Positions 33,130-49,389 are shown, numbered from the stretch's first letter. The stretch: 64,000 bases of DNA from Myxococcota bacterium (GCA_023150805.1 JAKLKF010000015.1:1-64000), one strand, 5' to 3'. Program-made: numbers and translations. Notes: generated by a model not told the origin, from the letters alone.

Positions 33130-33522
33130 TCAAGGCGCCCGCCGGAGCTCCTCCACCGCCGCCCGGACCGCCTCGACCAGCTCCCGCGCCCGGAAGGGCT
33201 TCTGGATGATCCGCGCGGCGCCCAGCTGCTGGAGCTGGCCCATCTCCCGCCGCATCACCTTCGCCGTCAGGAAGATCACCGGCAGGTCGGCGCAGCCCTC
33301 CAGCGTCCGCAGCTCGCGCAGGGTCTGTGGCCCGTCCATGCCCGGCATCATCACGTCGAGCAGCACCACGTCCGGTCGCTGCTGCGAAGCCCGGGCCAGG
33401 GCCGCCGGGCCCCCCTCCACGCTGTCGACCTCCATCCCGCCGATGCCCTCCAGCATCAGGCGCACGACCTCTCGAATCGCCGGATCGTCGTCGACGTGCA
33501 GGACGCGCGGTACCGGGCTCAC
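33130..33522 (-). CDS. Single-domain response regulator
   Basis: A 130-residue receiver-only protein: acidic pocket VDDDPAIRE, phospho-Asp in VVLLDVMMPGMDG, Thr in VIFLTAKVM and Lys in RIIQKPFRA. It has no output domain, so it acts through protein contacts (CheY/Spo0F-like). Its start overlaps the stop of the kinase gene by four bases, indicating a cognate pair. Confidence 0.93.
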   Translation of the reverse strand: MSPVPRVLHVDDDPAIREVVRLMLEGIGGMEVDSVEGGPAALARASQQRPDVVLLDVMMPGMDGPQTLRELRTLEGCADLPVIFLTAKVMRREMGQLQQLGAARIIQKPFRARELVEAVRAAVEELRRAP

Positions 33523-35630
33523 GTCGGCGCTCCAGCGGTCACGGGCCCCTCCGCGGACAGCAGGCGGAAGGAGAAGGTCGTGCCGCGCGGCGCGGCCGAC
33601 TCGAACCAGATGCTACCGCCGTGCGCCTCGACAATGGCCTTGGCGATGCTCAGGCCCAGGCCGGTGCCGCCGCTGCCGCGCCGGTCGGTGGCGTCGGCCT
33701 GGGAGAAGGGCTGGAAGACCCGCGCGCGGAAGTCCTCGGGGATCCCCGGCCCCTGGTCGGTCACGTGCACGACGATGTGGCCGTCGGTGCGGACCATCGA
33801 CAGGAGCACCCGGCCGCCGGGGGGCGAGAACTTGACGGCGTTGCCGATGAGGTTGGTGAGCACCTGGAGCAGGCGGTCGCGGTCCCCGAGCACCAGCGCC
33901 GGCCCCGTGGCGAGCTCCCGCGCGAGCAGCACCCCGTGCAGGTCGGCGAAGCCCCGGTTGGCCTGGGCGGCGGCCTCGAGCAGCTCGGTGCCGTCCAGCA
34001 CCTCCATGCGCAGGCGCAGCCCGCCGGTGCTGATGCGCTCCATGTCCAGGATGTCGTTGATCAGCCGGACGAGGCGCTCGCCGCTGTCGTAGGCGACGTC
34101 GACCATCCGGCTGGCCGTCTCCGACAGGGGGCCCAGCAGCCCGTCCCGCAGGAGCTCCAGCGAGCCGAGCATCGAGGTCAGCGGCGTGCGCAGCTCGTGG
34201 CTCACGGTCGAGACGAACTCGTCCTTCATGCGCTCGACCGCCTTGCGCTCGGAGATGTCGCGCAGCACGCCCAGGAAGGCCGGGCCGTCCCCCAGCCCCA
34301 GCGCGCTGACCGACAGCTCCAGCGGGAAGCGGGTCCCGTCGGCCCGCTGCCCCTCGACCTCGTTGAGGCCCCCCACGACCCGGGAGGCCCGGTCGGCCCG
34401 GTAGCGCTGCACGTAGCCCTCGTGCCGCCCGCGATGGGGCTCGGGCATCAGCACCGAGACCGGCTGGCCGACCAGGTCCTCGACCGGAAAGCCGAACATC
34501 CGCTCGACCGCCGGGTTCGCCGTGCAGATCCGCCCCTGGTCGTCGATGGTGAGGATGCCGTCGACCGTGTTCTCGACGATGGCGCGGAGGTGCCGCTCCC
34601 TCGCCTCGAGCTCCCAGGTGGCGCTGCGGAGCATCGCCGTGCGGGCGTCGACCAGCCGGGTCACCGAGTCGGTCCGGCTGACCAGGGTGGCCACGGCGAC
34701 GGCGCTGGCTCCGGTCAGGGCCACCCCTGCCAGCAGCACGAACACCCCCAGGGTGGACCAGCCTGGCGCCGCCAGGGGCGCCGCGGGTCGTACGACGGCG
34801 AGCACGGACGCCCCACCGATGGGGATGCGGTGGACCGCGTGCACGCCCTCCTGCGCCCCGGCGGCGGTCAAGGCAGGCGCCGGGGAGGAGGGGTGCTGGT
34901 CCACCTGGTGCACGTGCAGCGGGGCGACCGGCCCCTGGCTCCAGTCGGTGAACAGGTACAGGTCGACGCCGCCGACGGCCTGCACGCCGGGCAGCCGCTC
35001 GTCCAGGACGAGGGCGGCCACGTCGTCGAGGTGGGTCGAGGCGACCACCAGGCCCGCGCGCGCGACGGCGACCTCCTCGCGCGCCCCCTGGCCCGGGACC
35101 TCCTTCTCGCGGGCGCGGCGCACGACCACCCGGCTCAGGGGCCGCTCGGCGGCCTCCAGCCCCTCCACCGAGACGCTCGAGCCGGTGCGCTGCGCTTCCT
35201 CGGCGGCGGCGCGCCAGGTGGCCCGGCTGCCGAAGTCCAGGGCGGCCAGGCCGGCGCCGGCGGGTTCGGCGAAGCGGACGCCGTAGCGGGTGGGCGCCCC
35301 CGCCTCCTCCGGGGTCGGCTCCAGCCACAGCACCGCCTCCAGCCCGGGGAAGCGCTCCAGGAACACCGCGGCGAAGGTCCGGAACTCCTCGGCCTCGACC
35401 CGCTCCGAGCCTCGGAAGAAGGCAGACATCGCCTCCACCACGCCGAGCTGGGCGGTCACCTCGCGCTCCAGCGCCAGCATGACCGAGCTGGCGGCGTCGG
35501 CGAAGGCGACCTGGTGCCGCGCGCGGTCCCGTCCGTACTCGTAGCGGTTCGCCAACCGCACCGAGCCGACCGTGGCCAGCAGGCCCAGGCCGGAGAGCAG
35601 GATCGTGGGCGCGTGGCGAGTGAGGGCCAT
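33519..35630 (-). CDS. Sensor histidine kinase (CHASE-PAS-HisKA-HATPase)
   Basis: A 703-residue membrane kinase. The first helix is TILLSGLGLLATVGSV. The extracytoplasmic CHASE-like domain (about 45-285) carries VMLALEREVTAQLGVVEAM and the typical RFPGLEAVLWL. The second helix is near 310-335. A PAS domain follows (AIVENTVDGILTIDD, NPAVERMFGFP). HisKA has the phospho-His in STVSHELRTPLTSML (about residue 477), and the ATPase has NLIGNAVKFSPPGG and GTGLGLSIAKAIVEAHGG. It passes phosphate to the overlapping receiver gene. TAGCCT sits eleven bases before ATG 35630. Confidence 0.92.
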   Translation of the reverse strand: MALTRHAPTILLSGLGLLATVGSVRLANRYEYGRDRARHQVAFADAASSVMLALEREVTAQLGVVEAMSAFFRGSERVEAEEFRTFAAVFLERFPGLEAVLWLEPTPEEAGAPTRYGVRFAEPAGAGLAALDFGSRATWRAAAEEAQRTGSSVSVEGLEAAERPLSRVVVRRAREKEVPGQGAREEVAVARAGLVVASTHLDDVAALVLDERLPGVQAVGGVDLYLFTDWSQGPVAPLHVHQVDQHPSSPAPALTAAGAQEGVHAVHRIPIGGASVLAVVRPAAPLAAPGWSTLGVFVLLAGVALTGASAVAVATLVSRTDSVTRLVDARTAMLRSATWELEARERHLRAIVENTVDGILTIDDQGRICTANPAVERMFGFPVEDLVGQPVSVLMPEPHRGRHEGYVQRYRADRASRVVGGLNEVEGQRADGTRFPLELSVSALGLGDGPAFLGVLRDISERKAVERMKDEFVSTVSHELRTPLTSMLGSLELLRDGLLGPLSETASRMVDVAYDSGERLVRLINDILDMERISTGGLRLRMEVLDGTELLEAAAQANRGFADLHGVLLARELATGPALVLGDRDRLLQVLTNLIGNAVKFSPPGGRVLLSMVRTDGHIVVHVTDQGPGIPEDFRARVFQPFSQADATDRRGSGGTGLGLSIAKAIVEAHGGSIWFESAAPRGTTFSFRLLSAEGPVTAGAPT

Positions 35631-35724: not shown

Positions 35725-36270
35725 TCAGGGGACGACCGCCCCGTCCTGGACGATGACGTCGTAGGCGTAGCCGGCCCCGAAGTCCTTGTCCGTCACCACC
35801 GTGCCGCGGATGGTCACCACGTCCCCGACGGCCACCGTGTCCTTGATCTGCAAGGTCAGGTCGTGATCTCCGCCGGTGGAGGAGCCGCTGCCGTCCTGGA
35901 GGTGGACCCAGTTGGCGCCCATGATGTTGGGGTTGAACTTCACGACCTTGCCGCGGACGGCGACGGGCTTGCCCGCCAGCTCGGCCTTCTGGGCGAAGAC
36001 CTCGGAGACCGTGCGCGCGTCGGCGCCCTCGGCCTTCGGGACGGCCTCCACCGGGGCCGCGGATGCGTCGGCGCCGTGGGGCGCGGCGGCGGCGGGATCG
36101 GCGGGGGCGGGAGCGGCGCCCGCGGAGCCGTCGATGGGCGGGTGGCCGGGGGGCAGGCCCGCGGGCCCGGTGGCGGCGGCGGGGTCGGCGGCGGGCGCGG
36201 CGCCTTCGGGGGTGGCGGTCGGGGCCTGGGAGTCGCAGGCCAGGAGGACGGAGAGGAGGAGGACGAGCAC
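35725..36270 (-). CDS. OB-fold lipoprotein
   Basis: A 181-residue lipoprotein (lipobox VLLACDSQ) with a long Ala/Pro-rich linker to about residue 80. An OB-fold domain follows (GKPVAVRGKVVKFNPNIMG, NWVHLQDGSG, DVVTIRGTVV). This matches the small periplasmic OB domains found with cytochrome or redox systems (NrfJ-like); function unproven. It is divergent from the rnf operon, 279 bases away, and may share its control region. The weak GTG start follows GAGGTG. Confidence 0.7.
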   Translation of the reverse strand: MLVLLLSVLLACDSQAPTATPEGAAPAADPAAATGPAGLPPGHPPIDGSAGAAPAPADPAAAAPHGADASAAPVEAVPKAEGADARTVSEVFAQKAELAGKPVAVRGKVVKFNPNIMGANWVHLQDGSGSSTGGDHDLTLQIKDTVAVGDVVTIRGTVVTDKDFGAGYAYDVIVQDGAVVP

Positions 36271-36549: not shown

Positions 36550-37410
36550 ATGACGGTCATCACCGCCATCGCCACCCTCGGCGGCCTCTGCGTCCTGCTG
36601 GCCCTGCTGCTGGTCCTGGCGGACCGCAAGCTCCAGGTGTTCGAGGACCCCCGCATCGACGTCGTCGAGGACCTGCTCCCCCACGCCAACTGCGGCGCCT
36701 GCGGCCAGCCCGGCTGTCGCTCCTTCGCCGAGGCCCTGGTCGGCGGGCGCGCCCAGCCGGCCCAGTGCACCGTCGGCACGGCTGACTCCCGCCAGGCCAT
36801 CGCCGCCTTCCTGGGGGTCGACGTCGGGGCCGCCGACAAGCGGGTGGCCCGCCTGGCCTGCGCCGGCGGCAGCAACGTCGCCCGTGACCGCGCCCTCTAC
36901 CGGGGCACCTCGTCCTGCGCGGCGGCGGCGACCGTCGGCGGCGGCAAGGGCTGCACCTGGGGCTGCCTGGGCCTGGCCGACTGCGCGACCGCCTGCACCT
37001 TCGGCGCCATCACGATGGACGCGCACGACCTGCCCGTCGTGGACGAGGAGAAGTGCACGGCCTGCGGTGACTGCGTGCTGGCCTGTCCCAAGGACCTCTT
37101 CAGCATCCAGCCGGCCCGCCACCGCCTGTGGGTGGCCTGCCGCTCGGCCCTCGCCGGCGACGAGATCCTCGCCGACTGCGAGGTCGCCTGCACCGCCTGC
37201 GGCCGCTGCGCCATGGACGCGCCCGGCCTCATCACCATGAAGGGCAACCTGCCCGTCATCGACTACGCCCGCGGTCCCCTGAGCCCGGTCCCGACCGAGC
37301 GGTGCCCCACCGGCGCCATCGTCTGGCTGGACGAACACCAGGGTCCCGTCAAGGGCGCCGCCGCTCACCCCGTCATCCGCAAGGGGCCCCGCCCCGCCGC
37401 CCGCACCTGA
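36550..37410 (+). CDS. rnfB: Rnf complex subunit B, with one ferredoxin cluster lost
   Basis: A 286-residue iron-sulfur protein, the entry point for ferredoxin electrons in the Rnf ion pump. The N-terminal anchor helix is LGGLCVLLALLLVLA. The 4Fe-4S domain is CGACGQPGC plus a later Cys. Next come the conserved CTWGCLGLADCATACTFGAI and CTACGDCVLACP clusters. The final double-ferredoxin unit is altered: motif one reads CTACGRC with the fourth Cys replaced (AMDAPG), and motif two has lost its first three Cys but keeps CPTGAI. In this fold Cys 1-3 and 8 bind one cluster and Cys 4-7 the other, so exactly one cluster is gone. It heads an operon; ATG 36550. Confidence 0.9.
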   Translation: MTVITAIATLGGLCVLLALLLVLADRKLQVFEDPRIDVVEDLLPHANCGACGQPGCRSFAEALVGGRAQPAQCTVGTADSRQAIAAFLGVDVGAADKRVARLACAGGSNVARDRALYRGTSSCAAAATVGGGKGCTWGCLGLADCATACTFGAITMDAHDLPVVDEEKCTACGDCVLACPKDLFSIQPARHRLWVACRSALAGDEILADCEVACTACGRCAMDAPGLITMKGNLPVIDYARGPLSPVPTERCPTGAIVWLDEHQGPVKGAAAHPVIRKGPRPAART

Positions 37411-37421
37411 GAGAGGACGAC

Positions 37422-40400
37422 ATGAAGGCCCGTGACCTCATCGAGGCAGTCAAGAAGGTGTTTCCCGGACAACAGGACGCGGCGGCGACCGCTGTGAAGT
37501 ACCCCGGCGAGCGCGCAGCCCTGGACGGCAACACCGCCGTCATCATGTGCGAGCGCGAGTCGACCGACGGCGCGGGCGCCTACCCGATCACCCCCTCGAC
37601 GCAGATGGGCGAGTACTGGGCCGAGAACGCCGCCGCCGGGCACGTCAACATCTCCGGCCGCCCGCTCATCTTCATCGAGCCCGAGGGCGAGCACGCCGCC
37701 GCCGCCGTCACCGCCGGCCTCTCGATGACCGGCCTGCGGGCCGCGAACTTCAGCTCGGGCCAGGGCATCGCCTACATGCACGAGTCGCTGTACGCGGCGG
37801 TGGGCAAGCGGCTGACCTACGTGCTCAACATCGGCGCGCGGGCCATGACCAAGGCCAACCTCAACGTGCACGCCGGCCACGACGACTACCACGCCGTCGA
37901 CGACACGGGCTTCTTCCAGCTCTTCGCCAAGAACGCCCAGCACGCCGCCGACCTCAACATCATCTGCCACCGGATCGCCGAGCTGGCGCTGACCCCGGGC
38001 ATCATCGCCCAGGACGGCTTCCTGACGACCCACCTCATCGAGTCGCTGCAGGTGCCCGAGCGCGAGCTGATCGCCGAGTACCTGGGCCGCCCCGACGACC
38101 TCATCGACACGCCGACCCCCGCGCAGCGGATCATCTACGGTGACAAGCGCCGTCGCATCCCGCTGCTGTGGGACATCGACAACCCGGTCATGGCCGGCCT
38201 GGTGCAGAACCAGGACAGCTACATGCAGTCCGTCGCGGCCCAGCGGCCCTTCTTCTTCGACCACATCGAAGAGCTCACCAACCAGGCCATGGCCGAGTAC
38301 GGCGCGCTCACCGGCCGCTACTACGACCGCGTGATGACCTGGAAGGCCGAGGAGGCCGACTACCTGCTGCTGGGCCAGGGCAGCGTCATCCCCTCCTGCG
38401 AGGTGGTGGCCGACTACCTGTTCAAGACCCGCGGCCTGAAGGTCGGCGTCGTCGACCTGGTCATGTTCCGCCCCTTCCCGGCCGACCGGCTCGCCGCCAT
38501 CCTCAAGGGCAAGAAGGCCGTCACCATCCTGGAGCGCCTCGACCAGCCGCTGGCCGTCGACCTGCCGCTGGCCCGCGAGGTCCGCGCGGTCCTCAGCAAG
38601 TGCCTGGAGAACGGCCGGGACCCGGCGCACCCGCTGCACAAGGGCCTGCCCGCCTGGACGAGGATGACCGACGCCCCGGTGGTCTACTCGGGCTCCTTCG
38701 GCATGGGCAGCCGCGACCTGCAGCCCGAGGGCATCATCGGCGCGGTGGAGAACATGCTGCCCGAGGGCGCCCGCAAGCCCTTCTTCTACCTGTCGATCGA
38801 CTTCCTGCGCGACAAGCCCTACACCCCCAAGCAGCGGATGTACCAGGAGCAGATCGCCCAGTCCTACCCGCGGGTCGCCGAGCTGACCGTCAAGGGCAGC
38901 GAGAACCCGAACCTGATGCCCGATGGCGCCATCACGGTGCGCTTCCACAGCATCGGCGGCTGGGGCGCCATCACGACCGGCAAGAACCTGGCGATGACCC
39001 TGTTCGACCTGCTGGGCTACCACATCAAGGCCAACCCCAAGTACGGCAGCGAGAAGAAGGGGCAGCCCACCACCTACTACCTGTCCGCCGCCCCCGAGCC
39101 GATCCGGGTGAACTGCGAGTACATCTTCGTCGACGTCGTGCTGTCGCCCGACCCCAACGTCTTCGGGCACACCAACGCCCTGGCCGGCCTCAAGCAGGGC
39201 GGCGTCTTCATCATCCAGAGCGACAAGAAGACGCCCGAGGCGGTCTGGCAGAGCATCCCGGCCGTCTTCCGGCAGCTCATCGTCAAGAAGGACATCAGGC
39301 TCTACGCGCTCGACGGCTTCCAGATCGCCCGGGACGAGGCGACCGACCCCGAGCTGCAGCTGCGCATGCAGGGCATCGCCTTCCAGGGCGCCTTCTTCGC
39401 CGCCAGCCCGGTGATGAAGCAGGCCGGCCTGACCGACAAGCAGCTCCTCGACGCGATCCGCTCCCAGCTCCAGCACAAGTTCGGGGCCAAGGGCGCGCGG
39501 GTGGTCGAGGACAACATGCGCGTCGTCAAGCGCGGCTTCGACGAGATGATGGCCGTGCCCCACGGCGCGGTCGCCGACGCGCCGCCGGTCGACGACACCG
39601 CCGGCGAGCCGCTGTTCAAGGAGCCGGCGCTGCCCGAGCTGATCAAGCGCCGCCCGCGCGGCCAGGAGGCGGCCACCGACGTGCACCGCTTCTGGGAGCA
39701 GACGGGCAACTTCTACGCCCGCGGCATGGGCAACGACAACATCACCGACCCCTTCATCGGCCTGGGCATCATGCCCGCGATCACGGCCACCTTCCGTGAC
39801 ATGACGGGCATCCGCTTCACCCACCCCGTCTGGGTGCCGGAGAACTGCACGGCCTGCGGCAAGTGCTACACGGTCTGTCCGGACACGGCGATCCCCGGCC
39901 TGGTCAACGAGGTCGGCCAGGTCCTCGAGACGGTGGTCAACCGCGTGCAGAAGCACGGCCACAAGGTCGAGCACCTGCCGCGGGCCAGCCGGACCATCGA
40001 GAAGCACCTGCGCGCCATCTTCGCCGAGGCCACCGAGAAGGACAGCGTCGCCGGGATGATGGAGGACGCGATCGGCCGCACCATCCGCGAGGCGGCCGAC
40101 GACCAGCGCGAGGCGGTGCGCGCCGAGCTGGAGCTGTTCCGCAAGGAGCTCGGCGGCTTCAAGCTGGCGCTGACCCGCCCCTACTGGACGGTCCGGGAGC
40201 AGAAGGAGAAGGGCAGCGGCGGCCTGCTGTCGATCACGGTGAACCCGACCACCTGCAAGGGCTGCATGGAGTGCGTCGCGGTCTGCGACGACGACGCGCT
40301 GCGGCCCATCACCCAGACCGAGGACTCCACCGTCCAGCTCCGCCGGGACTGGGACTTCTGGATGGACCTGCCGACCACGCCCGAGAAGTTCATCCGCATC

Positions 40401-42407
40401 GACGACCTGGAGGAGGGCGTCGGCGCCCTGGAGACCCTGCTGCTGGACAAGCGCAACTACCTCTCGGTCACCAGCGGCGACGGCGCCTGCCTGGGCTGCG
40501 CCGAGAAGACTGCCATCCACCTCTTCGTCGCGACGGTCGAGGCGCTGATGCAGGGGCGGGTCAAGCGCCACCTGGTGGCGCTGGACGACCTGATCGCGCG
40601 GCTGGAGCAGCACGTGCAGCTCAAGCTGATGCGCGGCCTGGACGTGGGGGACCCCCGCACCATCGCCCGCATCGTCGAGAGCATGGGCAACCAGGACGTC
40701 ACGCTGGCCTCGATCGCGCAGCAGGCCGAGAAGCTGCGCGGCGGCGACCCCATCGACCAGGACTGGCTCAAGCGGGTCACCGGCCTGGTGGGCGAGCTCA
40801 AGGCGCTGAAGTGGCGCTACACCCAGGGCGTGACCGGCAACGGCCGCTCGACCATGGGCATGCTCAACTCGACGGGCTGCTCGTCGGTGTGGGGCAGCAC
40901 CTGGCCCTTCAACCCCTACCCCTTCCCCTGGGCCAACCACCTGTTCCAGGACTCCACCTCGATGGCCATGGGTGTCTTCGAGGGGCACATGGCCAAGATG
41001 GCCGAGGGCTTCCGCGCCATCCGCAAGGCCGAGCTGGAGCTGGCCGGCAAGTACGATCCCAAGAAGCACGACGAGGCCTTCACCTTCTTCGGCTGGCAGC
41101 AGTTCACCGACGAGGAGTGGGAGCTGTGCCCGCCCGTCGTGGCGGTGGGCGGTGACGGCGCGATGTACGACATCGGCTTCCAGAACCTCAGCCGCGCGCT
41201 GATGTCGGGCAAGCCGATCAAGGTGGTGGTCCTGGACACCCAGGTCTACAGCAACACCGGCGGCCAGGCCTGCACCTCGGGCTTCATCGGCCAGGTCAGC
41301 GACATGGCCCAGTACGGCAAGGCCATCAAGGGCAAGGAGGAGATCCGCAAGGAGATCGGCCTCATCGGCATGGCGCACCGCACGACCTATGTCCTGCAGA
41401 GCACCATCGCCAACCCGGGCCACATGATCGACGGCTTCATCAAGGGCCTGAAGGCGCGCCGGCCGGCGCTGTTCAACCTGTACACCTCCTGCATGCCCGA
41501 GCACGGCATCGGCGACGATCTCGGCTACGCCCAGGGCAAGCTGGCGGTCGAGTCCCGCGCCTACCCGCTGTTCAAGTACGATCCGGACAAGGGCAAGACC
41601 CCGCAGGAGTGCTTCGACCTGGACGGAAACCCGGCCATGGAGCTGGACTGGCCGGTCTACAAGCTGCACTACCGGGAGGGTGGTCGCACGCAGGTCATGG
41701 AGCTGCCGATGACCTTCGCCGACTTCGCCGTCACCGAGGCGCGGTTCCGCAAGCACTTCCGGGTGGCCCCGCCGGACACCTGGAACGACAACATGGTGCC
41801 GCTGCACGACTTCCTCGGCATGGACGAGGGCGAGCGCGAGGGTCGCTTCCCCTACATCTGGACGGTCAACAAGAAGCAGCAGCTCTCCCGGCTGCTGGTC
41901 GCCAAGCCGATCGTGCAGTCCTGCGAGGAACGCAGGGACTTCTGGGTCTTGCTCAAGGCCATCGCGAGGGTCGACGAGCAGCAGGTCGACCGGTCCAGCA
42001 TCGAGGCCGAGGTCCGGCAGGATGTCGTCAACCGCCTGGCCAACGGGCTGATGCAGCTCGTCGGCGGGCAGGGCGCCGGCGCGGCAGTGACCCTCACCTC
42101 GACACCCGGCCCCTCGGCGGCGCCTGTGGCCTCCTCCGGCAACGGCGCCGGCGGCGCCTACATGGCACCCTGGATCGACACGGCCCAGTGCACCGCCTGC
42201 GACGAGTGCATCAAGATCAACCCCAAGGTCTTCGTGTACAACGCCGACAAGAAGGTGGTGATCAAGGACGCCATGGCCGGGACCTTCGAGCAGCTCGTCA
42301 AGGCGGCCGAGAAGTGCACCGCGCAGGTCATCCACCCCGGGCTGCCCGCCGATCCCACCGCCAAGGGCATGGACAAGCTCGTGGCCCGCGCCCAGAAGTA
42401 CAACTAG
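37422..42407 (+). CDS. Long pyruvate:ferredoxin oxidoreductase with fused C-terminal ferredoxin
   Basis: A 1,661-residue single-chain 2-oxoacid oxidoreductase, versus about 1,200 for classical PFOR. It converts pyruvate and CoA to acetyl-CoA and CO2, reducing ferredoxin. Domains in order: pyrimidine-binding (TDGAGAYPITPSTQMGEYW, residues 45-65), transketolase-like C domain, gamma domain (SIGGWGAITTGK), then the double 4Fe-4S region with CTACGKCYTVC (809) and CKGCMECVAVC (945). The TPP domain has GACLGCAEK (1023), TGCSSVWGS (1153), GGDGAMYDIGFQN (1244) and YTSCMPEHG, which together give the third cluster and TPP/Mg site. After a Gly/Ala/Pro linker, residues 1590-1632 form a single-cluster ferredoxin (CTACDEC plus a distal Cys). 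Long insertions separate the cluster motifs. ATG 37422 is 11 bases after rnfB, and rnfC follows in 10 bases. Confidence 0.93.
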   Translation: MKARDLIEAVKKVFPGQQDAAATAVKYPGERAALDGNTAVIMCERESTDGAGAYPITPSTQMGEYWAENAAAGHVNISGRPLIFIEPEGEHAAAAVTAGLSMTGLRAANFSSGQGIAYMHESLYAAVGKRLTYVLNIGARAMTKANLNVHAGHDDYHAVDDTGFFQLFAKNAQHAADLNIICHRIAELALTPGIIAQDGFLTTHLIESLQVPERELIAEYLGRPDDLIDTPTPAQRIIYGDKRRRIPLLWDIDNPVMAGLVQNQDSYMQSVAAQRPFFFDHIEELTNQAMAEYGALTGRYYDRVMTWKAEEADYLLLGQGSVIPSCEVVADYLFKTRGLKVGVVDLVMFRPFPADRLAAILKGKKAVTILERLDQPLAVDLPLAREVRAVLSKCLENGRDPAHPLHKGLPAWTRMTDAPVVYSGSFGMGSRDLQPEGIIGAVENMLPEGARKPFFYLSIDFLRDKPYTPKQRMYQEQIAQSYPRVAELTVKGSENPNLMPDGAITVRFHSIGGWGAITTGKNLAMTLFDLLGYHIKANPKYGSEKKGQPTTYYLSAAPEPIRVNCEYIFVDVVLSPDPNVFGHTNALAGLKQGGVFIIQSDKKTPEAVWQSIPAVFRQLIVKKDIRLYALDGFQIARDEATDPELQLRMQGIAFQGAFFAASPVMKQAGLTDKQLLDAIRSQLQHKFGAKGARVVEDNMRVVKRGFDEMMAVPHGAVADAPPVDDTAGEPLFKEPALPELIKRRPRGQEAATDVHRFWEQTGNFYARGMGNDNITDPFIGLGIMPAITATFRDMTGIRFTHPVWVPENCTACGKCYTVCPDTAIPGLVNEVGQVLETVVNRVQKHGHKVEHLPRASRTIEKHLRAIFAEATEKDSVAGMMEDAIGRTIREAADDQREAVRAELELFRKELGGFKLALTRPYWTVREQKEKGSGGLLSITVNPTTCKGCMECVAVCDDDALRPITQTEDSTVQLRRDWDFWMDLPTTPEKFIRIDDLEEGVGALETLLLDKRNYLSVTSGDGACLGCAEKTAIHLFVATVEALMQGRVKRHLVALDDLIARLEQHVQLKLMRGLDVGDPRTIARIVESMGNQDVTLASIAQQAEKLRGGDPIDQDWLKRVTGLVGELKALKWRYTQGVTGNGRSTMGMLNSTGCSSVWGSTWPFNPYPFPWANHLFQDSTSMAMGVFEGHMAKMAEGFRAIRKAELELAGKYDPKKHDEAFTFFGWQQFTDEEWELCPPVVAVGGDGAMYDIGFQNLSRALMSGKPIKVVVLDTQVYSNTGGQACTSGFIGQVSDMAQYGKAIKGKEEIRKEIGLIGMAHRTTYVLQSTIANPGHMIDGFIKGLKARRPALFNLYTSCMPEHGIGDDLGYAQGKLAVESRAYPLFKYDPDKGKTPQECFDLDGNPAMELDWPVYKLHYREGGRTQVMELPMTFADFAVTEARFRKHFRVAPPDTWNDNMVPLHDFLGMDEGEREGRFPYIWTVNKKQQLSRLLVAKPIVQSCEERRDFWVLLKAIARVDEQQVDRSSIEAEVRQDVVNRLANGLMQLVGGQGAGAAVTLTSTPGPSAAPVASSGNGAGGAYMAPWIDTAQCTACDECIKINPKVFVYNADKKVVIKDAMAGTFEQLVKAAEKCTAQVIHPGLPADPTAKGMDKLVARAQKYN

Positions 42408-42417
42408 CAGGTCACCC

Positions 42418-43809
42418 ATGTCGGCCTCGTCCCACAAGACCTTCCGGCACGGGGTGCACCCCCCCGAGCAGAAGGACGACACCAAGGACCTGCCCATCCG
42501 GCAGTTCCCCTTCGCGCCGTCCCTGGCCGTGCCGCTGTCCCAGCACATCGGAAAGCCCGCGCGGCCCGTGGTGCGCGAGGGGCAGGAGGTCCGGCGGGGC
42601 CAGCTCATCGCCGAGCCCGACGGCGTGATGTCGGTCGCGATGCACGCACCGGCCTCGGGCACGGTGAAGCGCATCGGGCTGTTGCCCGGGGGCTCGGGGA
42701 TGGTGCCCGGGATCTGGATCGCGCCCTTCCCGGGCTCGACCCAGGAGGTGACCGAGGGCACGCCCGTCCACCCCGACACCGCCTCGCCCCAGGAGATCCT
42801 GCAGGCGATCCAGCGGGCCGGGGTGGTGGGCCTGGGCGGGGCGGCCTTCCCCACCCACGTCAAGCTGACCGTGCCGGCGGGAAAGGTCATCGACACCGTG
42901 ATCATCAACGGCGTCGAGTGCGAGCCCTACCTGACCACCGACCACCGCGTGATGCTGGAGCAGGACGCCGACATCTTCCACGGCATCCGCTACCTGCTGC
43001 GGCTCACGGGCGCGCCGCGCTGCATCATCGGCGTCGAGTCGAACAAGCCCGACGCCGTGGCGCACCTGCAGGCCCGCGTGCCGGCGGGGCTGCCGGTGAC
43101 GGTGGAGATGGTGCCGGTCAAGTACCCGCAGGGCGCCGAGAAGATGTTGATCACCGCGCTGCTGGGCCGGGAGGTCCCCTCGGGCGGCCTGCCCTCGGAC
43201 GTGGGCGTCGTCGTCGTCAACGTGGCCACCACCGCCGAGATCGGCCGCCTGCTGCCGCACGGCGGCGGGATCCAGGAGCGGGTGATCACCATCGGCGGCC
43301 CCGGGGTCAAGAAGAAGGGCAACTACCGGATCCCCATCGGCACCCCGCTGCGCTTCCTGCTGGAGACGGTGGGTGTCGAGGACGATCTCACCACGGTCTT
43401 CCTGGGCGGGCCCATGATGGGCCGCGCCGCGACCAGCCTGGATCTGTCCATCACCAAGGGCACCAGCGGCGTCATCGCCTTCACCAAGCGCCAGACCGGC
43501 AAGGAGGCGCAGGCGCGCGAGTATCCCTGCATCCGCTGCGGCGAGTGCGTCGAGGCCTGCCCCATCTTCCTCAACCCCAGCCAGCTCGGGCTGCTCGCGC
43601 GCGTGGGGCGCTACGAGGAGATGGCCAGCGACTTCCACCTGCTGGACTGCTTCGAGTGCGGATCCTGCAGCTTCGTCTGCCCGGCTCACATCCCCCTCGT
43701 CCACCGCTTCCGCGTGGCCAAGGCCGCGGTGCGCAAGGAGCGTGCGGCCGCCGCCTCGAAGCAAGCAGCCCAGAAGGAAGTCGAGCGGGTGAAGGCGGAG
43801 CACACATGA
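42418..43809 (+). CDS. rnfC: Rnf complex subunit C
   Basis: A 463-residue peripheral subunit that passes electrons to NAD. The family opening is GVHPPEQKDDT and LSQHIGKPARP, then HAPASGTVKRIG. The flavin/NADH-binding region is AGVVGLGGAAFPTHVKL and NGVECEPYLTTD. Two C-terminal 4Fe-4S motifs are complete: CIRCGECVEACP and CFECGSCSFVCP. The C-terminus is a short Lys/Ala/Glu-rich helix, not the very long repeat tail of enterobacterial RsxC. The start lies 10 bases after the PFOR stop. It overlaps rnfD by four bases. Confidence 0.95.
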   Translation: MSASSHKTFRHGVHPPEQKDDTKDLPIRQFPFAPSLAVPLSQHIGKPARPVVREGQEVRRGQLIAEPDGVMSVAMHAPASGTVKRIGLLPGGSGMVPGIWIAPFPGSTQEVTEGTPVHPDTASPQEILQAIQRAGVVGLGGAAFPTHVKLTVPAGKVIDTVIINGVECEPYLTTDHRVMLEQDADIFHGIRYLLRLTGAPRCIIGVESNKPDAVAHLQARVPAGLPVTVEMVPVKYPQGAEKMLITALLGREVPSGGLPSDVGVVVVNVATTAEIGRLLPHGGGIQERVITIGGPGVKKKGNYRIPIGTPLRFLLETVGVEDDLTTVFLGGPMMGRAATSLDLSITKGTSGVIAFTKRQTGKEAQAREYPCIRCGECVEACPIFLNPSQLGLLARVGRYEEMASDFHLLDCFECGSCSFVCPAHIPLVHRFRVAKAAVRKERAAAASKQAAQKEVERVKAEHT

Positions 43810-44831
43810 GCGGCCTGGACAAGACCCTGCTGGTCTCCTCGTCCCCCCACGTGCGAAAGGGGCGGGCGGTCGACCGCATCATGTTCGAGGTGATGCTGGC
43901 CCTGCTGCCGGCCGTGGCGTGGTCGCTGTGGTCCTTCGGCCTCGGGGCTCTGTTCACCCTGCTGACCGCGATCGCCGCCAGCGTGCTGGCCGAGCACCTC
44001 GCCTGCCGGATGGTGGGCCGTCCCTCCACCGTGCGCGACGGCTCCGCCATGCTCACCGGGCTGCTCTTCGGCCTCACCCTGCCGCCGGGCCTGGCCCTGT
44101 GGATGGTGGTGGTGGGCGCCTTCATCGCCATCTTCCTGGGCAAGGCCCTCTTCGGCGGGTTGGGCTACAACCCCTTCAACCCGGCCCTGGTCGGACGCGC
44201 CGTGATGCAGGCGACCTTCCCCGTCGCGATGACCACCTGGGTCGCCTCCACCGCGCCCGAGCGCTTCACCCGCCTGCCGTCGACGACGCTGGCCTGGCCC
44301 CTGACCCAGCCGGTCGTCGACGTGGTCTCCGGGCCCACGCCCCTGTCCGCCTGGAAGTTCTCCCACCAGGCGACGGACGCCGCGGACCTGTTCATGGGAT
44401 CGACCATGGGCTCGGCGGGCGAGACCAGCGCCCTGCTCATCCTGCTGGGCGGCGTCTACCTGGTCGGCCGCAAGGTGATGGGCTGGCGCATCCCGGTCAC
44501 CATCCTGGCCACGGTCGCCGTCGTCAGCGGTGCCTTGTGGCTGTGGGATCCCACGACCTACGCCTCGCCCTGGTTCCACCTGTTCTCCGGCGGGCTGATG
44601 CTCGGCGCCGTGTTCATGGCCACCGACATGGTCGGCTCGCCGATGACCCACACCGGCGTGGTGCTCTACGGCATCCTCATCGGCGTGCTGGTGGTCGTGA
44701 TCCGGACCTGGGCGGGCATGCCCGAGGGTGTGATGTACGCGATCCTTCTCGGAAACGCCCTGGCGCCCCACCTGGACCGGCTGATCCAGCCGCGGGTCTA
44801 CGGCACCACCCGCAAGGGGAAGGCTCCATGA
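43806..44831 (+). CDS. rnfD: Rnf complex subunit D
   Basis: A 341-residue integral subunit related to NqrB. It begins SSSPHVRKGRAVDRIMFEV and has about nine or ten helices. GSAMLTGLLFGLTLPPG is the conserved helix pair. The covalent FMN attachment region reads SGPTPLSAWK, with the acceptor Thr near residue 178. The Gly/Asn motif is GGLGYNPFNPALVGRA. The ATGA overlaps with rnfC and rnfG show translational coupling. It forms part of the ion-translocating core with RnfA and RnfE. Confidence 0.95.
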   Translation: MSGLDKTLLVSSSPHVRKGRAVDRIMFEVMLALLPAVAWSLWSFGLGALFTLLTAIAASVLAEHLACRMVGRPSTVRDGSAMLTGLLFGLTLPPGLALWMVVVGAFIAIFLGKALFGGLGYNPFNPALVGRAVMQATFPVAMTTWVASTAPERFTRLPSTTLAWPLTQPVVDVVSGPTPLSAWKFSHQATDAADLFMGSTMGSAGETSALLILLGGVYLVGRKVMGWRIPVTILATVAVVSGALWLWDPTTYASPWFHLFSGGLMLGAVFMATDMVGSPMTHTGVVLYGILIGVLVVVIRTWAGMPEGVMYAILLGNALAPHLDRLIQPRVYGTTRKGKAP

Positions 44832-45505
44832 GCGCGCCCTCCCCCGCCCTGGCCATGACCCGCACCCTGGTGGGCGCCGGCGTGGTCTGCGGCTTCCTCA
44901 TCGTCGTGGCCTACGAGCTCACCGCGCCCATCATCCAGGAGAACCGCATCGAGGCCCGGCAGGCGGCGGTCTTTGAGGTGCTTCCCGGCGCGGTCGCGAC
45001 CGCCACCTTCCAGCTCCAGGCCGACGGGTCCCTGCAGGCCGTGCCCGACGAGACCACCGCCGGCGACCTGGTCTTCGCCGGCTACGACGCGCAGGGCGGC
45101 CTGGTCGGCGCGGCCCTGGAGGCCCAGGGCATGGGCTACCAGGACACCATCCGCCTGATCTACGGCTACTCCTTCGACAAGGACGCGATCATCGGCATCA
45201 AGGTGCTGGAGAGCCGCGAGACCCCCGGGCTGGGCACCCGCGTCGAGACCGACCCGGTCTACCAGGCGAACTTCGACGCCCTGGACGTCTCGCTGGACGC
45301 CGCCGGCCAGGCGCTGGCCAATCCCATCGAGGCGGTCGGGGCCGGCAAGAAGCAGCACCCCTGGCAGGTCGACTGCATCACGGGGGCGACCATCAGCTCC
45401 AAGGCCATCGCCAACATGCTGGGGACCAGCGCCGCGAAGTGGATGCCCGCCATCGCCGCGCGCCCCGAGGCCCTGGCCCGGCCGGAGGGAGCCCATGTCC
45501 AGTAG
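44828..45505 (+). CDS. rnfG: Rnf complex subunit G
   Basis: A 225-residue periplasmic flavoprotein subunit with one N-terminal helix (TRTLVGAGVVCGFLIVVAYE). The FMN-binding signature is DCITGATISSKA, with the flavin-linked Thr near residue 188. The preceding GLGTRVETDPVYQ block is also conserved. It carries electrons between the RnfD flavin and the membrane iron-sulfur site. It overlaps rnfD by four bases and rnfE by eleven. Confidence 0.95.
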   Translation: MSAPSPALAMTRTLVGAGVVCGFLIVVAYELTAPIIQENRIEARQAAVFEVLPGAVATATFQLQADGSLQAVPDETTAGDLVFAGYDAQGGLVGAALEAQGMGYQDTIRLIYGYSFDKDAIIGIKVLESRETPGLGTRVETDPVYQANFDALDVSLDAAGQALANPIEAVGAGKKQHPWQVDCITGATISSKAIANMLGTSAAKWMPAIAARPEALARPEGAHVQ

Positions 45506-46124
45506 CAGCCCCCCCACCACGACCGACGAGTTCATCAAGGGCCTGTGGCGGGAGAACCCCGTCTTCGTCCAGGTGCTCGGCATGTGTCCGACCCTGGCCG
45601 TGACGAACTCCGCCGTCAACGCCGTGGCGATGGGCCTGGCGACGACCTTCGTCCTGGTGATGTCCAACCTGGCCATCTCCGCGATCCGCCGCTTCGTGCC
45701 CAAGCAGGTGCGCATCGTCACCTACATCCTGCTCATCGCGACCTTCGTCACCGTGGTCGACTACGCGATCGCCGCCATCTCGCTGCCGCTGCACAAGGCG
45801 CTGGGCGCCTTCATCAGCCTGATCGTGGTGAACTGCATCATCCTGGGCCGGGCCGAGGCCTTCGCCGGCAAGAACCCGATCCTGCCCTCGCTGGCCGACG
45901 GCCTGGGCATGGGCATCGGCTTCACCGGCGCGCTGCTCACGCTGGGCGTCGTGCGAGAGGTGCTCGGCATGGGCACGCTCTTCGGCGTGGCCTTGTTCCC
46001 CGCCGCCTTCCAGCCCTGGGTCATCATGGTCCTGCCGGCCGGCGGCTTCTTCACCCTGTCGGCCTGGATGTTGGTGTTCAACGCCCTGCGCCGCCGCCAG
46101 CGCGCGCTGTCGGAGCCGGCATGA
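45495..46124 (+). CDS. rnfE: Rnf complex subunit E
   Basis: A 209-residue, six-helix membrane subunit homologous to NqrD. The two conserved Cys that help hold the intramembrane iron-sulfur centre are present in VLGMCPTLAVTNS and VNCIILGRAEAFA. With RnfA it forms the pseudo-symmetric translocation core. It overlaps rnfG upstream and rnfA downstream. Confidence 0.95.
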   Translation: MSSSSPPTTTDEFIKGLWRENPVFVQVLGMCPTLAVTNSAVNAVAMGLATTFVLVMSNLAISAIRRFVPKQVRIVTYILLIATFVTVVDYAIAAISLPLHKALGAFISLIVVNCIILGRAEAFAGKNPILPSLADGLGMGIGFTGALLTLGVVREVLGMGTLFGVALFPAAFQPWVIMVLPAGGFFTLSAWMLVFNALRRRQRALSEPA

Positions 46125-46702
46125 CGCCCGAACCCCACTGGCAGATCCTGCTCAACTCCGCCCTGGTCAACAACTTCGTGCTGGCCTGGTTCCTGGGCAT
46201 CTGCCCCTTCCTGGGCGTGTCCAACAAGGTCGGCACCGCCAGCCGGATGGGCGCGGCGGTCACCTTCGTGATGCTGGTGACCGCGCTGGCCACCTGGGGC
46301 ATCAACATGCTGCTGGACACCGTGGGCGCGCCCTACCTGCGGCTCATCGCCTTCATCGCGGTGATCGCCTCGACCGTCCAGCTCGTCGAGATGTTCATCA
46401 AGAAGACCAGCCCGGCGCTGTTCAAGGCGCTCGGCATCTTCCTTCCCCTCATCACGACCAACTGCGCGATCCTGGGCCTTGCGCTGCTGCAGACCAACAA
46501 GGGCTACGATCTCGGCCGGGCCATCATCTTCGCCCTGGGATCGGGCCTGGGCTTCACGCTGGCCCTGGTGCTGATGGCCGGCGTCCGCGAACGCCTGGAG
46601 CTTGCGGACATGCCCGACCTGGTCAAGGGCACCGCCGCGTCGCTGGCCGTCGCCGGGATCCTCTCGGTCGCCTTCATGGGCTTCGCCGGGCTCGGAAGCT
46701 GA
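46121..46702 (+). CDS. rnfA: Rnf complex subunit A
   Basis: A 193-residue, six-helix membrane subunit homologous to NqrE. It retains the iron-sulfur Cys in FLGICPFLGVSNK and TTNCAILGLALL, in inverted topology relative to RnfE. It starts at ATG 46121 within the rnfE stop. A 69-base gap with a fresh AGGAGG then precedes the reductase gene, so this is the last Rnf subunit of the operon. Confidence 0.95.
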   Translation: MTPEPHWQILLNSALVNNFVLAWFLGICPFLGVSNKVGTASRMGAAVTFVMLVTALATWGINMLLDTVGAPYLRLIAFIAVIASTVQLVEMFIKKTSPALFKALGIFLPLITTNCAILGLALLQTNKGYDLGRAIIFALGSGLGFTLALVLMAGVRERLELADMPDLVKGTAASLAVAGILSVAFMGFAGLGS

Positions 46703-46771
46703 ACCCGGCCCCCGCTCCTCCCCTCCCCTGCTCGACCCCTCCTCCCCCGACTCCGCCTCCAGGAGGCCCTC

Positions 46772-47623
46772 ATGCGGCTCACCGACTACGACACCACCGA
46801 TCGCTTCACCGCGCGGGTCGTCTCCACCGAACGCATCTCCCCCCCCGAGGTCGAGGAGGTCCGCGAGCTGGTCCTCGACGTGGGCCGCGACCTGGCGGTG
46901 ACCGCCGGGCAGACCCTGGGCGTGCTGGCGCCCGGCCAGGCCGAGTTCGGCCAGGCGCACCACTTCCGCCTGTACACCGTGGCCGACATGCCGGAGCGCG
47001 CGGGGGGCCGCACCCGCCTCCGCATCGCCGTCCGGCGCTGCGACTACATCGACCCCTACAGCGGCGAGCGCTACCCCGGGGTCGCCAGCAACTACCTGTG
47101 CGACCTGCGTGCCGGCGACGAGCTCACGATGTCGGGTCCCTACGGCCTGGCCTTCCCGGTGCCGGCCGAGCCCGACGCCCAGCTCGTGCTCATCGGCATG
47201 GGCACGGGCATCGCGCCCTTCCGGGCCTTCCTGCGCCACCTCTACAACGACGTGCCCTCTTTCCGGGGGCGGGTCATCCTCTTCCACGGCGGGCGCACCG
47301 GCCTGGACCTGCTCTACCACAACGACGAGCGGGACGACTTCGCCCTGTACCAGGACAAGGGGACCTTCGAGGCGATCAAGGCGCTGTCCCCCCGGCCCGA
47401 CTGGACCGGGAGCATCGACTGGGCCGAGGCGATCGAGCCGCGCGGCGCCGAGCTGTGGCAGATGATGGCGTCGCCGGACACCTACGTCTACCTGGCGGGC
47501 CTCCAGGAGATCTCCGACCGCCTGGACGGGGTCTTCGCCGGGCTGGCCGGCAGCCCCGAGCGCTGGGCCCGGCGCAAGGCGGAGCTGCGCGCCGGCGGCC
47601 GCTGGGTGGAGCTGCTCTACTGA
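46772..47623 (+). CDS. Plant-type ferredoxin-NADP+ reductase
   Basis: A 283-residue cytosolic flavoenzyme. The FAD-binding beta barrel has HFRLYTVADMP (the RxYS-like motif), the loop SNYLCDLRAGDELTMSGPYG, and the NADP-domain start LIGMGTGIAPFRAFLRHLY. The remaining NADP fold (FHGGRTGLDLLYHNDERDD, TYVYLAGLQEI) and the C-terminal Tyr stacked on FAD (GRWVELLY) match plant-type FNR. It exchanges electrons between reduced ferredoxin and NADP. Its place directly after rnfA, with a good AGGAGG, links the PFOR/Rnf system to NADPH supply. Confidence 0.9.
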   Translation: MRLTDYDTTDRFTARVVSTERISPPEVEEVRELVLDVGRDLAVTAGQTLGVLAPGQAEFGQAHHFRLYTVADMPERAGGRTRLRIAVRRCDYIDPYSGERYPGVASNYLCDLRAGDELTMSGPYGLAFPVPAEPDAQLVLIGMGTGIAPFRAFLRHLYNDVPSFRGRVILFHGGRTGLDLLYHNDERDDFALYQDKGTFEAIKALSPRPDWTGSIDWAEAIEPRGAELWQMMASPDTYVYLAGLQEISDRLDGVFAGLAGSPERWARRKAELRAGGRWVELLY

Positions 47624-47641
47624 TCCGTCGCAGGAGGCACC

Positions 47642-48067
47642 GTGCACCCCTTCCGTCCGCTCAGCCAGGTCACCGGCGCCGCCGAGGTCTCCGCCACCCA
47701 CGAGGTGCTGATGGACGACCTCGCGCAGATCCTCGACAGCGAGGACGGCGCCGAGTCCGCCACGCTGCTGGCCCGCATCCAGGCCCAGATGCCGTGGCAC
47801 TTCCAGCTCGAGGAGGAGCGGGACGGCGTCTTCGACTGGATCCTGATGCTGGCCCCCGACCAGGCGGCCGAGGTGGAGGCGCTCATCGCCGACCACGTCC
47901 TGCTGCTGGAGGAGTCGGCCGCGCTGCGGCCGCCGGTCCGCGGGGATGACCACCGGGACCTGGCCGCGACGCTGCAGCTCGAGGCCTTCGCCGAGCACCT
48001 GCGCCAGCACGAGCGGCGGGAGAGCTCGGCGCTGCAGCTCGCCCTGGAGATCGCCGAGGCGACCTGA
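47642..48067 (+). CDS. Hemerythrin-like (HHE) protein
   Basis: A 141-residue, all-helical cytosolic protein with metal-ligand spacing like hemerythrin HHE proteins: THEVLMDDL, MPWHFQLEEERDG, LIADHVLLLEES and AEHLRQHERRESSAL. A non-haem di-iron site would bind or sense oxygen. GTG 47642 follows AGGAGG 18 bases after the reductase stop, so it is the last gene of the operon. A role in guarding the oxygen-sensitive PFOR/Rnf proteins is inferred from context. Confidence 0.65.
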   Translation: MHPFRPLSQVTGAAEVSATHEVLMDDLAQILDSEDGAESATLLARIQAQMPWHFQLEEERDGVFDWILMLAPDQAAEVEALIADHVLLLEESAALRPPVRGDDHRDLAATLQLEAFAEHLRQHERRESSALQLALEIAEAT

Positions 48068-48097: not shown

Positions 48098-48991
48098 TCA
48101 GCGCGCCTGGGCTCGTCGCCGACCGAGCGCCACCGCCAGCAGGGCCCACCCCAGGACCGGCGCCCCCCCGCCGGCCTGGCAGCCCTTCGGTGGGGGCTGG
48201 GCAGGCTGCGACGGGGTGCCCCCGTCCGCCTCGCCGCCATCGCCGGCCTGGCCGCTGTCGCAGTCACCGGCCGCCGCCACCGCCGGGTCGGCGTCGTCGC
48301 AGTCCGCCGGCGCCGGGGTGCCGTCCCCGTCGGCGTCGTCGTCGTCGTCGCCCGCGCAGTCGGAGTCGACGCCGTCGTACCAGGTCTCCGCGGCTCCCGG
48401 GTAGACGGCGGGGTCCGCGTCGTCGCAGTCCCCCTCGCAGTCGCCGACCTGGTCGCCGTCGCCGTCCATGCACTCGGACACCACCGACAGCACCAGCGTG
48501 TCGGTGCCCCAGCCGTCGCCGTGGGCGCTGCCGTCGGCGTCGACGGCGTTGCCGGCCGCCGCGATGGTGACCTCGGCCGCCCAGGCGGGCGCGGTCCAGG
48601 TGAAGTCGAAGCGCCGCTCCCCGTCCGTGGTGTCATGCGGGAACTGGTGGGTCAGCTCGCCCTTGCGCCACAGCAGGGTGGCCGACGGGACCAACGTGCC
48701 CGCCGTGGCCGAGACGTCCAGGCCCGCGGCCGTGTGCGCCGGGTCGGTCGAGCGCACGGTCAGGCTCAGCTCGACGGTCTCGCCGCCGGTCACCGAGGTC
48801 GCGCCGGCCTGCAGCTCCACCGAGACCGAGGGCGAGGCGGTCTCGCCGTGGCAGTCGACGCAGCCGCTGCGCGAGAAGCCGACCACGCCGTCGTCGTTGG
48901 CGCGCGCCGCGCCGCCCACCCAGAGCACCAGCACCGCGCTCGCCCGCAGCGCGTGCCCAAGGCCACGCCCGACCGGACGGGTGGGGCGCAT
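48098..48991 (-). CDS. Choice-of-anchor V-type protein with CxxCH, MopE unit and MYXO-CTERM tail
   Basis: A 297-residue exported protein. After the signal peptide (ALRASAVLVLWVGGAARA), the motif FSRSGCVDCHGET carries a haem-type CxxCH. A beta-sandwich follows (VSVELQAGATSVTGGETVEL), matching the 'choice-of-anchor V' family. Two MopE-like loops (DCDDADPAVYPGAAETWYDG) and a Pro-rich stalk lead to a tail with GC, a hydrophobic helix and RRR, a MYXO-CTERM anchor. It would be surface-exposed. ATG 48991 is the first Met before the signal peptide and lies eight bases after the stop of the lipoprotein gene upstream. Confidence 0.8.
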   Translation of the reverse strand: MRPTRPVGRGLGHALRASAVLVLWVGGAARANDDGVVGFSRSGCVDCHGETASPSVSVELQAGATSVTGGETVELSLTVRSTDPAHTAAGLDVSATAGTLVPSATLLWRKGELTHQFPHDTTDGERRFDFTWTAPAWAAEVTIAAAGNAVDADGSAHGDGWGTDTLVLSVVSECMDGDGDQVGDCEGDCDDADPAVYPGAAETWYDGVDSDCAGDDDDDADGDGTPAPADCDDADPAVAAAGDCDSGQAGDGGEADGGTPSQPAQPPPKGCQAGGGAPVLGWALLAVALGRRRAQAR

Positions 48992-48999
48992 CCGCCGTC

Positions 49000-49389
49000 C
49001 TACTCGCCCGCCAGCGGCAGGCCCTGCTCCTCGCAGGCCAGCTCGCAGGCGCTGATCGCCGCGTCCGCGTCGGCCTGGGCGACCTCGGTCTGCTGCCGGC
49101 ACTCCGCCACGCCCTCGGCGTCGAAGCCGCAGCCGCAGTCCCAGCCCACGCCCAGCGAGGCGATGTACTCCTCCTGGAACCAGGCGAAGCAGGTCTCGCA
49201 GTCGGCGTCGGTCGGCGCGTCGGCACACATCGCCTGCCAGGCCTCGCTGTCGACGGTCCCGCCCGCGGCGCCGATGGCGGCCGTCAGCTCGCCCTCCATC
49301 GCCAGGCAGGCCGTCGCACAGGCGTCGGGCTCCGGCTCCTTCTTGCAGCCGAGGAGGGGGGCGAAGGTCAGCAGGAGGATCGGGGTCAT
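49000..49389 (-). CDS. Cys-rich lipoprotein
   Basis: A 129-residue lipoprotein with signal sequence and lipobox APLLGCKK. The mature part has about ten Cys in paired clusters (ACATACLAM, DADCETCFAWF, WDCGCGFD, SACELACEE), suggesting disulfide bonds or metal binding. It is not a recognised family. GGAG precedes ATG 49389. It is probably co-transcribed with the anchor-V protein, and divergent from the kinase gene at 49492. Confidence 0.7.
   Translation of the reverse strand: MTPILLLTFAPLLGCKKEPEPDACATACLAMEGELTAAIGAAGGTVDSEAWQAMCADAPTDADCETCFAWFQEEYIASLGVGWDCGCGFDAEGVAECRQQTEVAQADADAAISACELACEEQGLPLAGE

Follow-up and report, generated by a model that had tools for sequence, protein, structure and literature searches.

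A divergent pyruvate:ferredoxin oxidoreductase encoded within an rnf operon may be a built-in input module of an Rnf ion pump

Introduction

In anaerobes, pyruvate:ferredoxin oxidoreductase (PFOR) and the Rnf ion pump are textbook partners joined by free ferredoxin. A 64,000-nucleotide stretch of DNA from a Myxococcota bacterium (GCA_023150805.1, JAKLKF010000015.1:1-64000; the whole stretch is hereafter called the window) carries a PFOR gene inside an rnf operon, raising the question of whether the enzyme is a neighbour of the pump or one of its parts. Following up a first-pass annotation of this locus, we found in the sequences a conserved gene order, all Rnf subunits, a PFOR whose catalytic and cluster residues are intact, a fused ferredoxin, joint inheritance and a sister operon with catalytically dead PFOR-derived proteins, which suggest that the PFOR protein is now part of the Rnf pump. 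The operon would then probably encode an Rnf pump into which a module for pyruvate input has been built.

A PFOR gene within a complete rnf operon

As the first-pass annotation had described, nine same-strand genes joined by overlaps or short gaps, with the PFOR gene lying between rnfB and rnfCDGEA, occupy the locus; they fill positions 36550-48067 exactly, with no terminator-like site between them. Spacings are 11 bp between rnfB and the PFOR gene, 10 bp between the PFOR gene and rnfC, 69 bp between rnfA and a plant-type FNR-like reductase gene, and 18 bp between the latter and a hemerythrin-like gene, while rnfC, D, G, E and A are linked by four overlaps of 4-11 bp. Upstream, across a 280-bp gap, lies a divergent neighbour, and the downstream neighbour is convergent. 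Family assignment by Pfam and NCBIfam profiles identified all six Rnf subunits (A, B, C, D, E and G) in this one operon, with RnfB, C, D, E and A above NCBIfam subfamily cut-offs and RnfG just below (84 versus 102 bits). RnfC contains a flavin mononucleotide (FMN)/NADH-binding domain together with 4Fe-4S motifs (Complex1_51K, 163 bits; RnfC_N; Fer4), and the membrane cysteines of RnfA and RnfE as well as the covalent-flavin motif of RnfG can all be read in the translations.

A divergent PFOR with a fused ferredoxin

Against the TIGR02176 equivalog model, the window PFOR scores 400 bits and does not reach the cut-off of 911, marking it as a divergent form of PFOR, here termed type A; among solved structures it matches 6CIN (7e-85). 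The protein has 1661 residues, whereas canonical PFORs of the same order mostly have 1195-1254. Its additions comprise about 80 residues ahead of the first cluster motif, about 80 between the domain-V motifs, about 100 past the proximal-cluster motif and, at the end, an extended tail that closes with a single-cluster ferredoxin. In an alignment of 78 type A proteins, the 12 cysteines of three [4Fe-4S] clusters (C809-819, C945-955 and C1023/1026/1153/1357) are invariant, and so are the motif for thiamine diphosphate (TPP), the activating Glu and the pyruvate-binding Thr, Arg and Asn. With its catalytic and cluster residues intact in this way, type A should be an active 2-oxoacid:ferredoxin oxidoreductase. 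In an AlphaFold model of residues 480-1661, the ferredoxin domain is confidently folded and matches Desulfovibrio africanus ferredoxin I (1fxr) with a TMt of 0.85 and a root-mean-square deviation of 0.8 Å, and the linker preceding it has a predicted local distance difference test (pLDDT) score near 30, consistent with a tethered carrier on a flexible arm.

Conservation and joint inheritance of the unit

As relatives we took the 80 best matches of a genome scan, at 64-74% identity, which belong to Bacteroidota (35), Pseudomonadota (19), Myxococcota (6), Acidobacteriota (6), Planctomycetota (4), Hydrogenedentota (4), Verrucomicrobiota (2), Calditrichota (2), Binatota (1) and one unnamed phylum; plasmid records (L023) add Gemmatimonadota. 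The usual order is rnfB-PFOR-rnfCDGEA-FNR, with rnfC immediately 3' of the PFOR gene in 67/69 loci of sufficient reach and FNR present in 51/56. The rnfB gene directly precedes the PFOR gene in 36/72 loci and follows FNR in 26 more, the latter being the placement in Bacteroidota. The rnfB-PFOR-rnfC adjacency is thus not confined to the genome in which it was first noticed, its order being kept in nine named phyla and recurring in dozens of genomes.

Evolutionary distances of PFOR correlate with those of the Rnf subunits at r values of 0.84-0.88, compared with 0.73-0.88 among the Rnf subunits themselves, and correlations among the distances of PFOR, Rnf and FNR lie at 0.84-0.91, indicating that the set travels together. 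Across 39 related genomes, RnfC scored above its cut-off six times, each time inside a type A cluster or the type B cluster described below. The order kept across nine phyla, the matching distances and the occurrence of rnfC, in these 39 genomes, only in PFOR-type clusters strongly support a dedicated PFOR-Rnf unit, as the first-pass annotation had proposed. The distribution of type A is patchy, with the protein found in 7/113 sampled genomes of the window's phylum and, within the window's order, in just one other of 38 relatives. Carriers in culture (Polaribacter, Algoriphagus, Allomuricauda, Marivirga and Rubripirellula) open the type A unit to direct tests.

A sister operon with dead PFOR-derived proteins

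The window's genome contains a second rnf cluster (G000:C111; L025:5539-17302, minus strand), termed type B, with the order B2-rnfB-B1-rnfCDGEA, in which two PFOR-derived proteins stand on either side of rnfB, B1 with the domain-V motifs and B2 with the ferredoxin. The TPP site and proximal cluster required for an active PFOR are lost in 7/7 B1 proteins, which have lost YPIT, Glu, the proximal-cluster Cys, GDG and SNTGGQ, and in all B2 proteins examined, none of which has a TPP motif. By contrast to the catalytic parts, six of the seven B1 proteins have a full set of domain-V Cys and 7/7 B2 proteins with a complete tail have all the ferredoxin Cys, and this retention of Fe-S parts suggests a relay or docking arm. 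The ratio of nonsynonymous to synonymous substitution rates between close relatives is 0.43-0.47 for B1 and B2 versus 0.42 for the active form, arguing that B1 and B2 are not decaying pseudogenes.

Type B occurs in six genomes of the window's order and in Phycisphaerae, Calditrichales and Thermoanaerobaculia, representing at least three other phyla. In the tree, types A and B form one clade (support 99) with the long catalytic PFOR of L176 outside, although some B branches are long and the details of this tree are uncertain. The RnfC proteins of A and B clusters likewise form a single clade relative to seven canonical RnfC proteins (98 in the Shimodaira–Hasegawa-like approximate likelihood ratio test). 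The strongest hint that the protein is a subunit of the pump, and not merely a neighbour, comes from the dead PFOR retained between rnfB and rnfC; the sister form also offers a natural separation-of-function case. Whether proteins derived from PFOR belong constitutively, as subunits, to a distinct Rnf lineage is, in our judgement, evenly poised; type A would then be an ion-pumping pyruvate:NAD+ oxidoreductase of oxygen-respiring bacteria, and type B, its catalytic part dead, would retain its relay clusters and ferredoxin as an arm serving some other electron donor or acceptor.

A rival account, which we regard as rather unlikely, takes these as co-regulated separate enzymes, with a soluble PFOR reducing a ferredoxin pool used by Rnf and FNR and the cluster being a convenient mobile operon. 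In anaerobes such as Prevotella (PMC10542786) and Butyrivibrio (PMC4478896), it is established that free ferredoxin couples PFOR to Rnf, and the patchy spread within the phylum fits a mobile operon. However, type A brings its own ferredoxin, its gene is placed between rnfB and rnfC and not at the end, and the dead PFOR kept in the B-type rnf operon is unexplained by a soluble enzyme.

Several observations weigh against a PFOR built into the pump. Conserved adjacency can reflect shared regulation instead of a complex, and choosing the 80 closest matches favours conserved order, so that conservation among distant relatives may be overstated. One locus (L045) has a type A PFOR followed by FNR with no adjoining rnfC, another (L075) has type A without rnf nearby and in mobile-element-like surroundings, and the B1 of Phycisphaerae is without the domain-V Cys. 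The AlphaFold model has an overall pLDDT of 60 and was used for local features only, and the case as a whole is drawn from sequence.

Two further sequences were observed alongside these clusters. L036:9329-11104 lies ahead of rnfB in a type A cluster and encodes a B2-like protein that has no ferredoxin domain, which makes the arrangement a hybrid one. L176:8464-13209 encodes the long catalytic PFOR, of 1582 aa, which lacks both a ferredoxin tail and neighbouring rnf genes; type A is also present in that genome.

Proposed mechanism and metabolic setting

In an Rnf pump with a built-in pyruvate module, the 1661-residue protein would oxidise pyruvate and coenzyme A (CoA) to acetyl-CoA using thiamine diphosphate, and low-potential electrons would pass through its three [4Fe-4S] clusters to the fused ferredoxin on its flexible arm and on to RnfB/RnfC. 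Rnf would reduce NAD+ while exporting Na+ or H+, and FNR could branch electrons to or from the same fused ferredoxin. At standard values about 180 mV (35 kJ/mol) is available, and NAD+ reduction by Rnf with ion export would conserve these ~35 kJ/mol that are lost by pyruvate dehydrogenase (PDH). Physical attachment to Rnf, pyruvate as substrate, the oxidative direction and the exported ion are all points that we infer. If true, this would constitute an energy-conserving pyruvate-to-NADH route outside strict anaerobes, in respiring, PDH-bearing bacteria, and an example of redox pumps gaining input modules.

Heme-copper oxidase subunit I is present in 50/51 carrier genomes, a count taken among carriers only. 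Genes for E1 components of the PDH/2-oxoglutarate dehydrogenase (OGDH) type were found in 46/46 carriers checked, with both PDH-size and OGDH-size matches in most, including the window's genome. These counts indicate that the unit resides mostly in organisms able to respire oxygen or nitric oxide, where it is additional to PDH; a general replacement of PDH or OGDH by type A was rejected on the same E1_dh genes. A nitrogen-fixation role was likewise rejected, as NifH is above its cut-off in only 2/46 carriers. The fused ferredoxin, the near-restriction to genomes with a heme-copper oxidase, the PDH-type genes and the dead sister version had all been missed in the first-pass picture.

The unit could also operate in reverse, a respiratory ion gradient and NADH driving electrons via Rnf and ferredoxin into PFOR, which would make pyruvate from acetyl-CoA and CO2. 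The PFOR reaction is reversible, although the high NAD+/NADH ratio of aerobes favours oxidation. Carriers respire and their PDH-type E1 genes cover the oxidative direction, and Rnf in aerobic Azotobacter runs backwards, reducing ferredoxin, according to a review (PMC12174285). Nevertheless, the relatives' loci show no further carbon-fixation gene associated with the unit and nitrogenase is seldom present in carriers, and we consider reverse operation unlikely.

Substrate of the type A protein

Pyruvate is most likely the substrate of type A, which keeps the substrate-contact residues of the D. africanus PFOR, with residue roles and contacts that we take to be those of the 1B0P/1KEK work. Another small 2-oxoacid in its place appears doubtful: the low equivalog score and the altered surroundings of the active-site Arg (NVHAGHDDYH in place of SIFGDHSDV) would accord with it, but the PFOR active-site Thr, Arg, Glu, Cys and Asn are all retained and the best solved relatives are PFORs. 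Contamination or misjoined contigs as the source of the adjacency, conceivable for a host assembly resembling a metagenome-assembled genome (398 contigs, 4.6% contamination), are refuted by recurrence of the same order at 75% identity in a genome of the same family (G007), and by its presence in numerous unrelated genomes, isolates among them.

Relation to known systems

Type A shares domain order, TPP site, three [4Fe-4S] clusters and fold with the PFORs of Moorella thermoacetica (6CIN) and D. africanus (1B0P), but is ~460 residues longer, 26-28% identical, and located inside an rnf operon, with a helical domain-V insert, an extended TPP domain and a fused ferredoxin. Its C-terminal domain has the fold of D. 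africanus ferredoxin I, here fused via a flexible linker. The Rnf complexes of Acetobacterium, Thermotoga, Vibrio and Azotobacter have the same six subunits with their redox motifs; differing here are an RnfC in a separate clade with B-type, the PFOR-like gene between rnfB and rnfC, the FNR at the end and, in many relatives, an additional small membrane protein that is Cys-rich and has one helix. Respiratory complex I and Ech offer a parallel, as an analogy only, in that an ion pump has gained a soluble enzyme as its input arm, pump and module being unrelated. Searches confined to open-licence literature gave no description of the PFOR-rnf operon, of the enzyme with its fused ferredoxin or of the dead version, and a 2025 RNF review (PMC12174285) shows no PFOR-rnf operon where it treats pyruvate, aerobic bacteria and gene clusters.

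The FNR-like reductase shares flavin adenine dinucleotide (FAD) motifs, GTGIAPF and a C-terminal Tyr with plant/cyanobacterial-type FNR (PetH) and the BoxA reductase; RLYT and a STYLC-type motif are kept in the window protein, and RxY and C are invariant in 54 aligned rows. It differs from PetH at the positions that we take to contact the NADP 2'-phosphate (S223, R224, R233 and Y235, Anabaena numbering), where only the Ser is kept and P, S/P and A/D occupy the others. These residues lend no support to a preference for NADP(H), so that the cofactor may be NAD or NADP, and the earlier proposal that electrons are balanced toward NADPH could not be upheld. The hemerythrin-like protein, previously counted within the unit, is specific to the window, and its membership is ruled out by the absence of a homologue from the loci of all 80 relatives.

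Table 1 Features of the rnf-PFOR operon and neighbouring genes in the window.
Feature	Position	Strand	Details
rnfB	36550..37410	+	286 aa, long poly-ferredoxin type; TIGR01944 76.7 bits, cut-off 68.7; PF04060, Fer4
PFOR with fused ferredoxin, divergent type A	37422..42407	+	1661 aa; POR_N, PFOR_II, POR, TPP_enzyme_C, Fer4, Fer4_13
PFOR domains I-II	37515..38600	+	TPP/pyruvate residues T57, E90, R140 invariant; T57 (YPIT Thr) in 77/77 readable
[4Fe-4S] motif C809/C812/C815/C819	39846..39878	+	78/78 invariant
Insert between domain-V cluster motifs, predicted helical	39909..40244	+	spacing 136 residues versus 55-56 in canonical; helices at pLDDT 78-88, residues 831-910
[4Fe-4S] motif C945/C948/C951/C955	40254..40286	+	78/78 invariant
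TPP-binding motif GGDG...YSNTGGQ	41148..41267	+	residues 1243-1282; both halves 78/78 invariant
Linker to ferredoxin	42036..42158	+	residues 1539-1579, predicted disordered; pLDDT <50
Fused single-cluster ferredoxin C1590/C1593/C1596/C1632	42174..42335	+	PF13370; four Cys invariant 78/78
rnfC	42418..43809	+	463 aa; FMN/NADH domain and two 4Fe-4S motifs; TIGR01945 485 bits
rnfD	43806..44831	+	TIGR01946 343 bits
rnfG	44828..45505	+	PF04205; TIGR01947 84 bits, cut-off 102; flavinylation-like motif TGATIS
rnfE	45495..46124	+	TIGR01948 238.5 bits; membrane Cys motifs MCPTLAV, VNCIILG
rnfA	46121..46702	+	TIGR01943 240 bits; membrane Cys motifs ICPFLGV, TNCAILG
Plant-type FNR-like reductase	46772..47623	+	matches PetH/FNR structures, 1e-34
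Hemerythrin-like protein	47642..48067	+	GTG start; PF01814; adjacent passenger
PAS-histidine kinase	33519-35630	-	divergent from operon
Short lipoprotein-like protein	35725-36270	-	divergent from operon
MopE copper-binding motif protein	48098-49228		PF11617
MopE copper-binding motif protein	59166-61250		PF11617

Accompanying genes

Beyond the unit, only a small Cys-rich protein and a HEPN-like protein are conserved in the relatives' flanks. The former (60-70 aa), encoded between rnfA and FNR, has one membrane helix followed by D(V/A)LAxRxxCxxCxC...C, as in L055:19215-19424, L034:11936-12145 and L082:10264-10458; the rnfA-FNR gap is empty of it in the window and in L031. Its layout recalls that of the Na+-NQR maturation factor NqrM, but a Pfam search gave no match to NqrM or to any other family, leaving a resemblance of layout only. 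The HEPN-like protein (~122 aa; PF05168, E 5e-4) directly precedes PFOR in 23 Bacteroidota loci, for example L055:9502-9906. In a metagenome-assembled genome of Acidobacteria, a rubrerythrin/ferritin-like gene (L101:18947-19411) lies between rnfA and FNR.

Upstream of the operon in the window, the divergent genes for a PAS-histidine kinase and a short lipoprotein-like protein form a pair with a possible link to operon regulation. The window also encodes two MopE copper-binding motif proteins, one of them convergent with the operon end.

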